Shown here piece after piece: positions 28,055 through 31,596 of a stretch of DNA of 64,000 nt. The position numbers and the translations under genes are program-made. The first letter of the stretch is position 1. Each line of letters starts with the position of its first letter. Below the pieces are notes generated by a model, which had not been told where the DNA came from, did no database searches, and was given only the letters and a program-made list of their open reading frames with translations. The stretch spans positions 1-64,000 of the forward strand of contig NZ_NBYY01000028.1 in the NCBI RefSeq assembly GCF_002464935.1. Reading direction: 5' to 3'. This DNA is from Candidatus Enterovibrio escicola (lineage in GTDB: Bacteria > Pseudomonadota > Gammaproteobacteria > Enterobacterales > Vibrionaceae).

Positions 28055-28781
28055 AAGCTTAGATCTGCATAAGCGCTTTCTTATCAAGCCGAGTCATCTT
28101 GATGCTTGGTTTCTTTGGTTGAAATGAATACGCGATAAACCCCGCCAGCAAGTTAACCATAAAGAGGGTACAACTACGATACCGAGAATGCTCTATTTGG
28201 TATATGTGTTTTAGTTGGTTAAAAACAGTTTCAATAATAAATGGTTTCTGGAGTATCAGGAAGTCTCAAAGTTCGTCAGCCATTTCTGGTACGGGGTTCC
28301 TATAATTCACGTTAGTCGTGTCACGTTGAGTGAGATAATGCTACCTTGGTCATTGATAATGAGGTGTAATGTAAAGCCATAGAACTACCCCATCATTCCT
28401 TTTCCTCGCTTCGAGGAACCTTTAAAAACCTGATATCTGAAAATGTGTAGATTATGATAAACCTGTAGCTTGGACGAATCAACGAAGGCAATCCCTGTCA
28501 GCTTTTCCTGACGGTGAGTGAGGTAAGAGCAAAGCGGAACCAGAATACCTTGCATGAGCTTAAGCATTCGCATGTAGTTGAATAATTTAGGAAATTCGTT
28601 GGTGAAGTAACGGCAAACAAACTGGATGTAATAGGTTTTAAAGTCTGGCAAATGTCATCGACATCGATGAAAATAGTGTTTAAGTTATTTAGGATCAAGT
28701 TCTTATGTAGTCAATAGCGTTTTTAAAATGGTTAGCTCGCGATTTTGGCATTTAGTTCATTTCTTATGCGCAGCTCAGGTT
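28055..28781 (-). mobile_element. IS982 element with internal deletion
   Basis: The ends are AGATCTGCATAAGCGC near 28060 and GCGCAGCTCAGGT at 28780. The minus strand shows the N-terminal FKTYYIQFVCRYFTNEFPKL, LMQGILVPLCSYLTHRQEKL and FVDSSKLQVYHNL segments. The catalytic centre is partly deleted around 28260, where two distant parts are joined. Confidence 0.8.
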
Positions 28782-29015
28782 ACGTAAAATGTTTGGAACT
28801 CCCAGTAACCTGAAATCCCCTCCTTCAATTAAGTCAGTTCATCCCTAAATTCTGGTAATCACCTGCATACTCCATGAGAGCTTACAATTCTTTATCCAAA
28901 ATCTCTGCGCGTACTGCGTCTTCTATCGTATGTTCATCAACATTCATTTGGGGTATGCGGATTTAGTGATTGATTTTCACAGGATGTATTAATTTGTAAA
29001 AATCGGATTTAATGA

Positions 29016-29045
29016 TTGACATCATAAACTAAATACACTTGTATT
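29016..29045 (+). promoter_or_regulatory. Promoter for the ISL3 passenger gene
   Basis: A perfect TTGACA at 29016-29021 is followed after 18 bp by TGTATT at 29040-29045. It lies inside the element, 65 bp before the passenger start, so the passenger is transcribed from its own promoter. Confidence 0.55.
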
Positions 29046-29051
29046 AAGAAC

Positions 29052-29090
29052 GTGGAGACATCCACAGCCGAACTCAGCGGCGACTCTGAG
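29052..29090 (+). promoter_or_regulatory. Two tandem stem-loops in the passenger leader
   Basis: GTGGA (29052-29056) pairs with TCCAC (29061-29065) over a GACA loop, and CTCAG (29073-29077) pairs with CTGAG (29086-29090). Both fall between the promoter and the start codon. The pair could stabilise the leader or regulate translation; role unknown. Confidence 0.5.
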
Positions 29091-29109
29091 AAGACAAAAT
29101 GATTTAACC

Positions 29110-29871
29110 ATGAAAACTATCTCTATTGCTGAATTTGAAACTCTGGTAGCACGCAACGACTGGCAGCGAGAATAAAATTGCGAAGTTTTAGAGCGTCTTG
29201 ATCGTCAGGTTGAAGAGTAGAACGAAGAAAATGAATCTTTTGATCTGAACGATATTCCTCATGTTTTTGGTTTGGCTTCTAAAACCTCAACCTTAGATGG
29301 TATTAAAATTACTTACACCGAAGGCTTTAACTACGAAGAATGCGACTCCGACTCTCTGTCTACAGGAACCGAGGGACAGGATGCTGTTTGGTCTGTAGAA
29401 AGCGTTACGGTTGTTGATGAAGAGGGTGACGAGCTGAATGCACACGAATTGGCTGACTATCTGGATTCTGATTTCAGCAGCATTAATTACAGTGTACTTG
29501 AGATAGAGCAAATAATTGACGGAGACGAGGACTCTGACATGGAAACATTTACACTTGATATTGATAACGCGCCAAACGTTCGCTTTACTGGTGAATTGGT
29601 AGCAAATGTGGCTTGTTCTGATAATCAAGCTATTGGCAGTAGTTATAACGGTCCAACTGGTCGTTGGATAGAGTTATCTCTTTACAAGACCAAAGGCGGA
29701 AAATTCATCTGTCATCAAGTTGGTCGCACTAGAAGGAAAGATGAGCGTGACCGTTTTAGCGGCAAGGTCTGTGAAACGCTGGAAGAGGTTAAAGAGTTTT
29801 TTGGCCACCGCTAGCTATCCAAAGAGTTGTACGCTGAGGCTAGCATTGATGATGTAGTAGAAGTGGAGTGA
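29110..29871 (+). pseudogene. ISL3 passenger gene, unknown function, three in-frame stops
   Basis: From the ATG at 29110 one frame runs to a TGA at 29869-29871, 254 codons in all, but is cut by TAA near codon 22, TAG near codon 37 and TAG at 29812-29814. Each could arise from a Gln or Trp codon by one transition, and sequence on both sides still reads as protein: MKTISIAEFETLVARNDWQRE at the start, SFDLNDIPHVFGLASKT, a long acidic middle, then GRWIELSLYKTKGGKFICHQ, KDERDRFSGKVCETLEEVKE and a tail ending DDVVEVE. The longest open part is 29272-29814. I do not recognise the family; the acidic character and C-terminal block recall small plasmid-borne accessory proteins. It has its own promoter and terminator. 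Confidence 0.8.
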
Positions 29872-29875
29872 CAGC

Positions 29876-29902
29876 AAGGGGCTTCGGCTCCTTTCTTTTT
29901 GA
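29876..29902 (+). terminator. Rho-independent terminator after the passenger gene
   Basis: AGGGGC and GCTCCT form a short stem closed by the stable TTCG tetraloop, followed by TTCTTTTT. It lies just after the passenger stop and before the transposase, separating the two transcripts. Confidence 0.75.
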
Positions 29903-29920
29903 CTATGACAAATTTTGACT

Positions 29921-31222
29921 ATGACAAATATTTTGAATTGGTCTGACTACAATGTTAGTCAGGTTCATGAATCTAAGTATGATTATCAGGTTTACGCTGA
30001 ACTAAAATACCCGCCTTCATTTTGCATCCACTGCTACACATCTGATCTCGTTGGTTTTGGGAAAAGAACCGAAATTATCATGGATATACCCATGCACGGC
30101 AAGCGTATCGGCATCCACCTAAATCGTAAACGTTTTAAGTGCCAAAGTTGTAATAAGACGTTCTACGAGCTTGTATCGCGCAAAGATGAAAAACGTAGGA
30201 TGACTAAACGTCTTATTGAATACATCGAGCGAGAGAGCCAGAAACGTACATTTTTAAGTATTGCAGATGATATAGGTGTGGATGAAAAAACAATCCGTAA
30301 CATATTTCAAGATTACTGCGAGCGTGAAGAAGAACGACTGAAATTCGAAATGCCAAAATGGTTAGGAATTGATGAAATTCATATCATTAAGAAACCTCGA
30401 TGCGTGTTAACCAATATTGAGTATCAAACAGTCATTGATATGCTCGACAACCGTGATAAATCAACTCTACTTCGCTACTTTACAAAACGCGAAGACAGAG
30501 AGCATATTGAATTTGTCGCAATGGATATGTGGTGTCCTTATAAGGACACGGTAGAAACCATGATACCGAATTTCACTATCGTCATAGATAAGTTCCACGT
30601 AGTCAAAATGGCTAACGAGTCGTTAGAGCGTGCAAGAAAAGCAATACGTAGCCAACTTACGCCACAACAGCGCCGTGGACTACTAAAGGATAGGTTTGTA
30701 CTGCTAAAGCGAAAGCACGAACTCTCAGATGCGGAATACTTACGTCATTCTGGCTGGATACTTAACTATCCCGAAATGGGAGAAGCTTACGAACTTAAAG
30801 AGTCTTTCTTTGTTATTTGGATCAGTCAGACGCGTGATGAAGCTCAGCAAGCTTACTACGCTTGGCTACGACTGGTTTCACCTGAAATGACGCGGTATTT
30901 TGATCCGCTAATCAAAGCTATGGGTAACTGGCACAATGAAGTTTTTGCGTACTTTGATCATCCAATAACGAATGCTTATACGGAAAGTCTCAACAACCTC
31001 ATTCGAGTTATGAACCGTACTGGTCGAGGTTATAGCTTTGAAGCTTTTAGGGTTAAGATGCTATTTACTGAAGGATTCCAAAAAGTGAAACGTCCACTAT
31101 ATCAACGAGATCCAATTTCTGATGATGCCATTAGCTTGTTTGATATGGCTGCGGAACCGCAAATAGTAACGAACTATGGTTCGAGCATATCAACTTTGAT
31201 CAAAGAATTTGAAAGGGATTAA
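29921..31222 (+). CDS. ISL3-family transposase, intact
   Basis: The 433-residue protein has the ISL3 layout: an N-terminal zinc-finger region (CIHC near residue 36, CQSC near residue 75), a helix-turn-helix around residues 110-140 (TFLSIADDIGVDEKTIRNIF), and the DDE core with first Asp in WLGIDEIHI, VAMDMWCPYK, VIDKFHVVKMANE, and the C-terminal Glu in ITNAYTESLNNLIRVMNRTGRGYSF. The frame is uninterrupted. The ATG at 29921 is chosen over a TTG two codons upstream. It probably mobilises its own element, and as the only complete transposase here it stands apart from the decayed families. Confidence 0.95.
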   Translation: MTNILNWSDYNVSQVHESKYDYQVYAELKYPPSFCIHCYTSDLVGFGKRTEIIMDIPMHGKRIGIHLNRKRFKCQSCNKTFYELVSRKDEKRRMTKRLIEYIERESQKRTFLSIADDIGVDEKTIRNIFQDYCEREEERLKFEMPKWLGIDEIHIIKKPRCVLTNIEYQTVIDMLDNRDKSTLLRYFTKREDREHIEFVAMDMWCPYKDTVETMIPNFTIVIDKFHVVKMANESLERARKAIRSQLTPQQRRGLLKDRFVLLKRKHELSDAEYLRHSGWILNYPEMGEAYELKESFFVIWISQTRDEAQQAYYAWLRLVSPEMTRYFDPLIKAMGNWHNEVFAYFDHPITNAYTESLNNLIRVMNRTGRGYSFEAFRVKMLFTEGFQKVKRPLYQRDPISDDAISLFDMAAEPQIVTNYGSSISTLIKEFERD

Positions 31223-31257
31223 AAAAGTCACATTTCACTCACTAAATCCGCATACCC

Positions 31258-31596
31258 TTCATTTGTTATATCCAGTAATTCACGGGTATTACTAGACAAT
31301 CCAGCCTATCATCATGCTTTTAGCGCCCATTTTTCCATCGTCACTCACGCCATTTGGTAAAAGAGTCAGTAAGATACTTTAGCAACTATACTTGCCTGTC
31401 CCTCTCGATAAGTTTGTAGTCAACCACTAACTTATGTTGCATTATGACGGGTTTTAGCATATCGCTACTACGGCGTTATTTCTGGACGTGGTGCCTTATA
31501 TCCTCGATATAGCAAGGGTAAATCCGGTTAACGAAAGGTCGTAGTAATTGACAAAACATGCTGTCACCTGAATTGGATTTATAAAAAATCTTATTT
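31258..31596. other. Unassigned DNA right of the ISL3 insertion
   Basis: The first 8 bp are the target duplication. The rest shows no intact gene; the minus strand has a short open run (MQHKLVVDYKLIERDRQV then LLKYLTDSFTKWRE after a stop) that may be the remains of a foreign gene like those at 31.8-33.1 kb. Confidence 0.3.

Follow-up and report, generated by a model that had tools for sequence, protein, structure and literature searches.

We suggest that the insertion element at positions 28951-31257 (2307 bp) of the window, by which we mean the whole analysed stretch of 64,000 nucleotides from contig NZ_NBYY01000028.1 of Candidatus Enterovibrio escicola, is probably an ISL3 element of a two-gene type, now decayed, with an exchangeable expression cassette in its cargo slot. 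The features of the element are given in Table 1.

Table 1. Features of the ISL3 element and its flanks (window positions).
Feature	Position	Strand	Remark
Target duplication TTCATTTG, left copy, 8 bp	28943..28950	.	
Left inverted repeat, outer 19 bases perfect	28951..28973	+	
Subterminal repeat of the inverted-repeat motif	29004..29022	+	Overlaps the -35-like hexamer of the passenger
Promoter-like TTGACA - 17 nt - TTGTAT	29016..29044	+	By eye
Conserved 5' leader	29049..29106	+	Covariance model R1, 75.1 bits; window sequence among the 7 used to build R1
Leader hairpin 1, GTGGA-GACA-TCCAC	29052..29065	+	Predicted fold
Leader hairpin 2, CTCAG-CGGCGACT-CTGAG, after linker AGCCGAA	29073..29090	+	Predicted fold
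Passenger pseudogene, in-frame stops at codons 22, 37 and 237	29110..29871	+	Translation from ATG 29110
Intrinsic terminator-like stem past the passenger	29876..29893	+	
Tandem duplication of TTTTGACTATGACAAA at the cassette/transposase junction	29897..29928	+	
ISL3 transposase, 433 aa: zinc ribbon, HTH, DDE	29921..31222	+	
Right inverted repeat	31235..31257	-	
Target duplication TTCATTTG, right copy	31258..31265	.	

The ISL3 family duplicates 8 bp of its target. The window element has such a duplication together with terminal inverted repeats, which agree at 96% over 23 nt and are identical in the outer 19 bases, and a DDE domain above the curated cut-off. Its transposase matches Pfam DDE_Tnp_ISL3 at 1.7e-61 and NCBIfam NF033550 with 272 bits (cut-off 180), and the motifs GIDE, VIDKFHV and AYTESLNN, which we take to be the catalytic motifs, are readable. 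The initial annotation was thus right in describing an ISL3 element with cargo, perfect 19-bp ends between identical 8-bp flanks and an uninterrupted transposase of 433 residues. Of the 40 open reading frames of at least 110 aa in the window, 12 were run against Pfam; ten of these, run in one batch, are host genes.

The same annotation placed a separate transcription unit (promoter, two leader hairpins, gene and terminator) inside the element. The terminator and the two predicted leader hairpins hold up, but the gene is interrupted by three in-frame stops, and the reading frame at 29272-29814 that had been taken for the passenger is a remnant of a longer pseudogene. By eye, the promoter-like pair aligns with TTGACA...TACCAT of the E. 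coli copy described below; its -10 hexamer is weak, and a consensus promoter scan did not list the pair. A stretch similar to the subterminal repeat can also be seen by eye in the E. coli and Vibrio harveyi backbones, and TTTTGACTATGACAAA appears by eye as a single copy in the E. coli element. In the whole stretch, 4 intrinsic-terminator sites were found against 1.7 expected.

Intact pairs of passenger and transposase are found on an E. coli IncK2/Z plasmid, in E. coli DETEC-S792, in Amphritea atlantica and in a Lysobacterales MAG; L069, from IMG/VR, has neighbouring reading frames as in the Amphritea atlantica locus. The E. coli (proteins WP_001681711 and WP_001681712), Amphritea and MAG elements have the same cassette and leader as the window element, but neither of their two genes is disrupted. 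With the window transposase, those of Amphritea and the MAG share 68% identity, and five full-span passenger copies in the symbiont genome are 84-87% identical to the E. coli protein. For the passenger, dN/dS is low, at 0.09, 0.09 and 0.20 in three pairs of intact copies and 0.09-0.14 in three pairs that include the window copy. Exact 8-bp duplications flank the DETEC-S792 (GCTTTATG) and Amphritea (TAGATTTT) copies, and neither the copy on the E. coli plasmid nor that in the MAG has a matching target duplication; by locus, an exact duplication is present in L040, L072 and L021 and absent in L020 and L073.

The DETEC-S792 copy interrupts the tnpA of an IS200/IS605 element (IS200C tnpA in the five rows shown). 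Of 5426 E. coli genomes, 2081 have the joined flanks of this site without interruption over at least 80% of the joined length, often more than once; since IS200C is itself multi-copy, these matches represent the target without the insert and not always the same locus. Because the E. coli target is found uninterrupted elsewhere, passenger and transposase appear to have moved as one unit at this site. Judged by sequence, the cargo therefore lies inside the ends and moves with the element, as is the case for passenger-gene ISL3 elements.

The leader and gene together look like a cassette that is exchanged between ISL3 backbones. This is because elements that have otherwise diverged share a nearly identical block, and because related elements carry other cargo. 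The E. coli and Amphritea elements differ at 14 positions in a block of 990 nt, from the leader into the start of the transposase, and at 144 in the other 1310 nt, a mosaic contrast that was matched by 0 of 200 site shuffles. Their dS is 0.051 in the passenger and 0.502 in the transposase. The cassette is about 87% identical between the window and E. coli and the transposase 66%, whereas the window and V. harveyi transposases are 86% identical despite the unrelated V. harveyi cargo. In that element, on V. harveyi pvh3 (L021; transposase DNA about 86% identical to that of the window, target duplication CAAAACTC), the same slot holds reading frames of 52 and 155 aa where the window has the passenger. 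In the three pairs for which both genes were compared, the lower synonymous divergence of the passenger might partly come from synonymous constraint, not exchange.

In each of the five loci inspected (L219 and L227 were left out), more distant elements, with transposases 44-57% identical to that of the MAG, have different genes in front of the transposase. The cargo of L216/L228 is a methylase (Eco57I/N6_Mtase) with a BsuBI/PstI endonuclease, in an element that has ATTTGATT on either side of its ends, and is likely a type II restriction-modification pair inside a simple IS; at L228 3125-7135 (G553:C1), N6-methylase-like and BsuBI/PstI-type genes lie in a complete ISL3 element of 4.0 kb. L217/L230 carries DUF5397 and a Cas2-like small protein, just below the Pfam cut-off, which presumably resembles VapD; the element with DUF5397 and this Cas2/VapD-like protein in its cargo slot spans L230 762-3515 (G205:C40). 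The remaining cargo consists of small reading frames, one of them DUF2442 (L226), an ArsP-type permease (L215/L229), and a signal peptidase II beside a reading frame that by eye is cation-efflux-like (L218). Both element ends were found in L226, L228, L229 and L230, and the right end only in L218.

ISL3 elements with cargo are a known kind. According to excerpts of PMC4447125, ISPpu12/ISPpu12a (ISL3, 3372 bp) likewise carries a passenger module; its cargo is the CzcD metal efflux protein, whereas the window type carries one orphan acidic protein behind a structured leader. ISPst2a/b (ISL3, 2985 bp), in excerpts of PMC6305408, has ends of the same style (GGGTATCCGGAATTT and GGGTATACGGATTTA), 8-bp repeats and internal passengers, an ArsR-family regulator and a putative permease that are unlike the window passenger. 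The literature on ISL3 passenger genes that we covered in excerpts, with most subscription journals outside its scope, includes the ISPpu12 and ISPst2 types and no description of the present cassette or leader.

The conserved leader has a fixed order of hairpin 1, linker, hairpin 2 and ribosome site. In an alignment of eight leaders that was fitted to R1, a model to which seven of these rows or their close kin had contributed, and that includes five ISL3 copies, 97.4% of the cells pair and 5 of 10 pairs are changed on both sides. The compensatory changes expected of a structured cis-regulatory leader are thus found in both helices of these eight sequences, within an alignment fitted to the model. 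Their covariation score was reached by 0 of 500 shuffles, a weaker measure (further pair types) by 12 of 500, and sliding the pairing partners destroyed the signal; the more independent rows are L022, L041 and L075. Single-sequence folding z-scores are modest (-0.7 to -2.0 in eight sequences). With limits that were set after seeing the 14 upstream regions, the two-hairpin layout is present in nine of them at shuffle p <= 0.033, with L071 at 0.06, and absent in four (L024, L026, L213 and L074). It is found with different stem sequences 5' of the divergent Shewanella, Halomonas, phage and G345 homologs. The GCC of the linker could pair with the GGY of the hairpin-2 loop. We considered a riboswitch and do not claim one: Rfam has no match to window positions 28900-31300 at E<=1, nor to L022, L127 and L041 at gathering scores.

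Searches with the leader were also made across genomes. A broad leader family was not retained: R1 gave hits at E <= 0.1 in 95 of 296 family genomes, our own included, and none of the 15 loci inspected is a whole leader ahead of a passenger-like gene. Several of these lie inside long reading frames and may be chance matches, and the leader may well have scattered relatives; L162 keeps hairpin 1 and the linker, and L163 hairpin 1 only. L160 1501-1559 and L161 1501-1558 (G051 and G597, of the Vibrionaceae family) have hairpin 2 without hairpin 1, at 25.5-25.6 bits. At L159 1501-1546 (G643:C125), 30 bases are identical to the leader before the sequence diverges into a simple repeat, and may be what is left of the cassette. 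An exact scan of viral contigs for the leader core gave 27 loci, with only L061 (on the same contig as L069) relevant by eye, and a gapped pattern gave 70 stretches, with only L127 (the same as L075) and L061 convincing by eye. The same leader is present at L041 3001-3058, on the A. caldus megaplasmid mpAca1.1, at the end of a ProQ/FinO-family gene. Since it there precedes a 30-codon reading frame that by eye does not evidently resemble the passenger, the link between leader and passenger gene is not strict.

The intact passenger is an acidic protein of about 255 aa, with a pI of 4.1-4.3 in all eight proteins measured, and the family has the strong negative charge of acidic DNA-mimic and anti-restriction proteins. 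It is rare. Matches were found in 2 of 199 relatives and, for a C-terminal profile, in 2 of 369 class genomes, the own genome being counted each time. There are matches in three plasmid records, a fourth (Ahniella) with a Halomonas query, and a weak match in one phage (two records). One genome-contig scan contributed three loci and two viral-contig scans three each. A first genome-contig scan gave 588 candidate stretches and no relative. Only the N-terminal half is present in L071, and only the C-terminal half in L024, L026, L074, L078 and L213. No Pfam or NCBIfam model matches the passenger at cut-off, and PADLOC has none at E <= 1; the top hit in PHROGs, with an E of 0.0027, has no name, and the best profile match to the PDB has an E of 0.15. 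Since the protein is strongly acidic, occurs on plasmids and phages, and related ISL3 slots hold a restriction-modification pair or a Cas2/VapD-like protein, we speculate that it is a counter-defence or addiction-type factor. The AlphaFold model (pLDDT 55.7) is too weak to use and gives this idea no fold support.

The symbiont genome (G000; 2,645,619 bases, 39 contigs) has 19 matches to the element. Besides the window copy, nine copies exceed 2 kb, at 94-96% identity, and the ten long copies are 95.0-97.7% identical in pairs. Their divergence is star-like, with 289 singleton and 59 informative columns. Singleton changes (synonymous/other/stop) number 27/64/12 in the passenger and 30/97/8 in the transposase, against a rough neutral expectation, with mutation weights of our own choice, of 28:67:4 and 28:68:5 percent, respectively; passenger stops lie above it. 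Neither gene looks to have been under selection since the burst, and the changes look near-neutral. Among 13 passenger matches, the five spanning residues 1-255 hold 1-3 stops each and the rest are partial. Of six transposase matches, four cover residues 1-433 and have no stop; in-frame deletions shorten two of the four. Of the nine own copies with both ends, five (L001, L002, L005, L006 and L012/L013) have an exact 8-bp target duplication, and in the other four a matching one is absent. The five IS982-like copies, a group named from Pfam DDE_Tnp_1_3 and from the IS982 count in excerpts of PMC6020299, are 81-84% identical to each other. Because the ISL3 copies are at 95.0-97.7%, the comparison supports an ISL3 burst younger than that of the IS982-like group, which would be an older expansion.

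These data bear on how the window copy should be viewed. The initial annotation had regarded it as the only intact mobile element, late or still active among dead insertion sequences. Its perfect ends and duplication, its open transposase with readable motifs, and the closer likeness among ISL3 than among IS982-like copies do fit a recent insertion, and lateness relative to the IS982-like group stands. However, it is one of many copies that diverge in a star-like manner with near-neutral class ratios in both genes; it has 14 singleton changes of its own in each gene, in addition to the three passenger stops, and over their length the closest other matches in the genome reach 96% identity, one fragment of 64 nt having 97%. 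A recent and still active insertion is thus highly improbable. Gene decay after insertion, with the passenger broken and the transposase still open, also separates the window copy from a functional autonomous transposon. The insertion site is covered by none of 17 other genomes of the genus, and both flanks contain repeats with many copies in the own genome.

Two other explanations concern the parts of the cassette. The passenger could be an accessory or regulator of ISL3 transposition instead of cargo, as it is enclosed by the ends of the element, and as a subterminal repeat to which the transposase may bind overlaps its promoter-like pair. We regard this as very unlikely, since family members occur apart from any nearby ISL3 transposase on a Shewanella plasmid (L022), a Halomonas plasmid (L038) and phage contigs (L070 and L075), the close V. 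harveyi backbone with its exact duplication has no passenger, and the more distant ISL3 elements carry unrelated genes. Alternatively, the leader hairpins could be inherited sequence with no role, the protein alone being of importance. The leader copies are mostly close relatives, the folding scores are modest and the layout is missing in four upstream regions, all of which would agree with this. Against it are the compensatory changes in both helices, the recurrence of the layout with different stems ahead of divergent homologs (under limits set post hoc), and the conservation of about 45 nt of leader at 87% between Shewanella and E. coli, whose proteins are 47% identical. An inert leader is therefore unlikely, though slightly less so than the accessory role.

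We return to the decayed two-gene element with an exchangeable cassette, for which the following mechanism may be proposed. The backbone would consist of left repeat, cargo slot, transposase and right repeat, and the slot would take a self-contained cassette of promoter, two-hairpin mRNA leader, acidic-protein gene and terminator. Homologous recombination would swap cassettes between ISL3 backbones, and related cassettes are present on a plasmid and a phage contig. A hairpin at the 5' end of an mRNA can slow decay. Since hairpin 1 lies a few bases from the predicted 5' end and hairpin 2 just before the ribosome site, the leader may give the cargo a stable, efficiently translated mRNA at any site of insertion. 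The start codon (ATG) of the transposase is 28 nt beyond the final base of the terminator stem, and by eye this interval contains no clear promoter or ribosome site; we thus infer that low-level transposase expression comes from transcripts that read through the cargo terminator. In the symbiont, the element would have multiplied after the IS982-like burst and then decayed. A bolder extension is possible and rather doubtful. In it, leader and acidic gene form a self-sufficient mobile cassette whose carriers, namely ISL3 elements, plasmids and phages, can replace one another, the leader is an undescribed cis-acting RNA securing expression in whatever host it newly enters, the protein acts in counter-defence, and this ISL3 subgroup is a general platform that recombines defence, addiction and resistance cassettes through one slot.

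If the proposed reading is right, a simple IS family serves as a vehicle with an exchangeable cargo slot, with loads up to a complete restriction-modification pair. The analysis also brings to light a family of orphan proteins whose RNA leader covaries and which can be put to a direct test in E. coli. In addition, it qualifies the published view of the symbiont. Excerpts of Hendry et al. 2018 (PMC6020299) describe 'Ca. Enterovibrio escacola' MJ02 as a deep-sea anglerfish symbiont with 57 ISL3 transposases, none complete and all truncated or without inverted repeats; the window copy, at least, has both ends, its duplication and an open transposase.

Two further observations concern the own genome. 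An IS982-like transposase remnant (Pfam DDE_Tnp_1_3) lies beside the element at window positions 28385-28651, and the segment 28351-28950 has 62 pieces among the own-genome matches listed. In one own copy, L012/L013 (G000:C16:27402-28716), part of the interior is deleted, so that the end of the passenger is joined to the late part of the transposase close to a short repeat (TTAAAGAGTTTTT/TTAAAGAGTCTTT); this copy has kept its target duplication.
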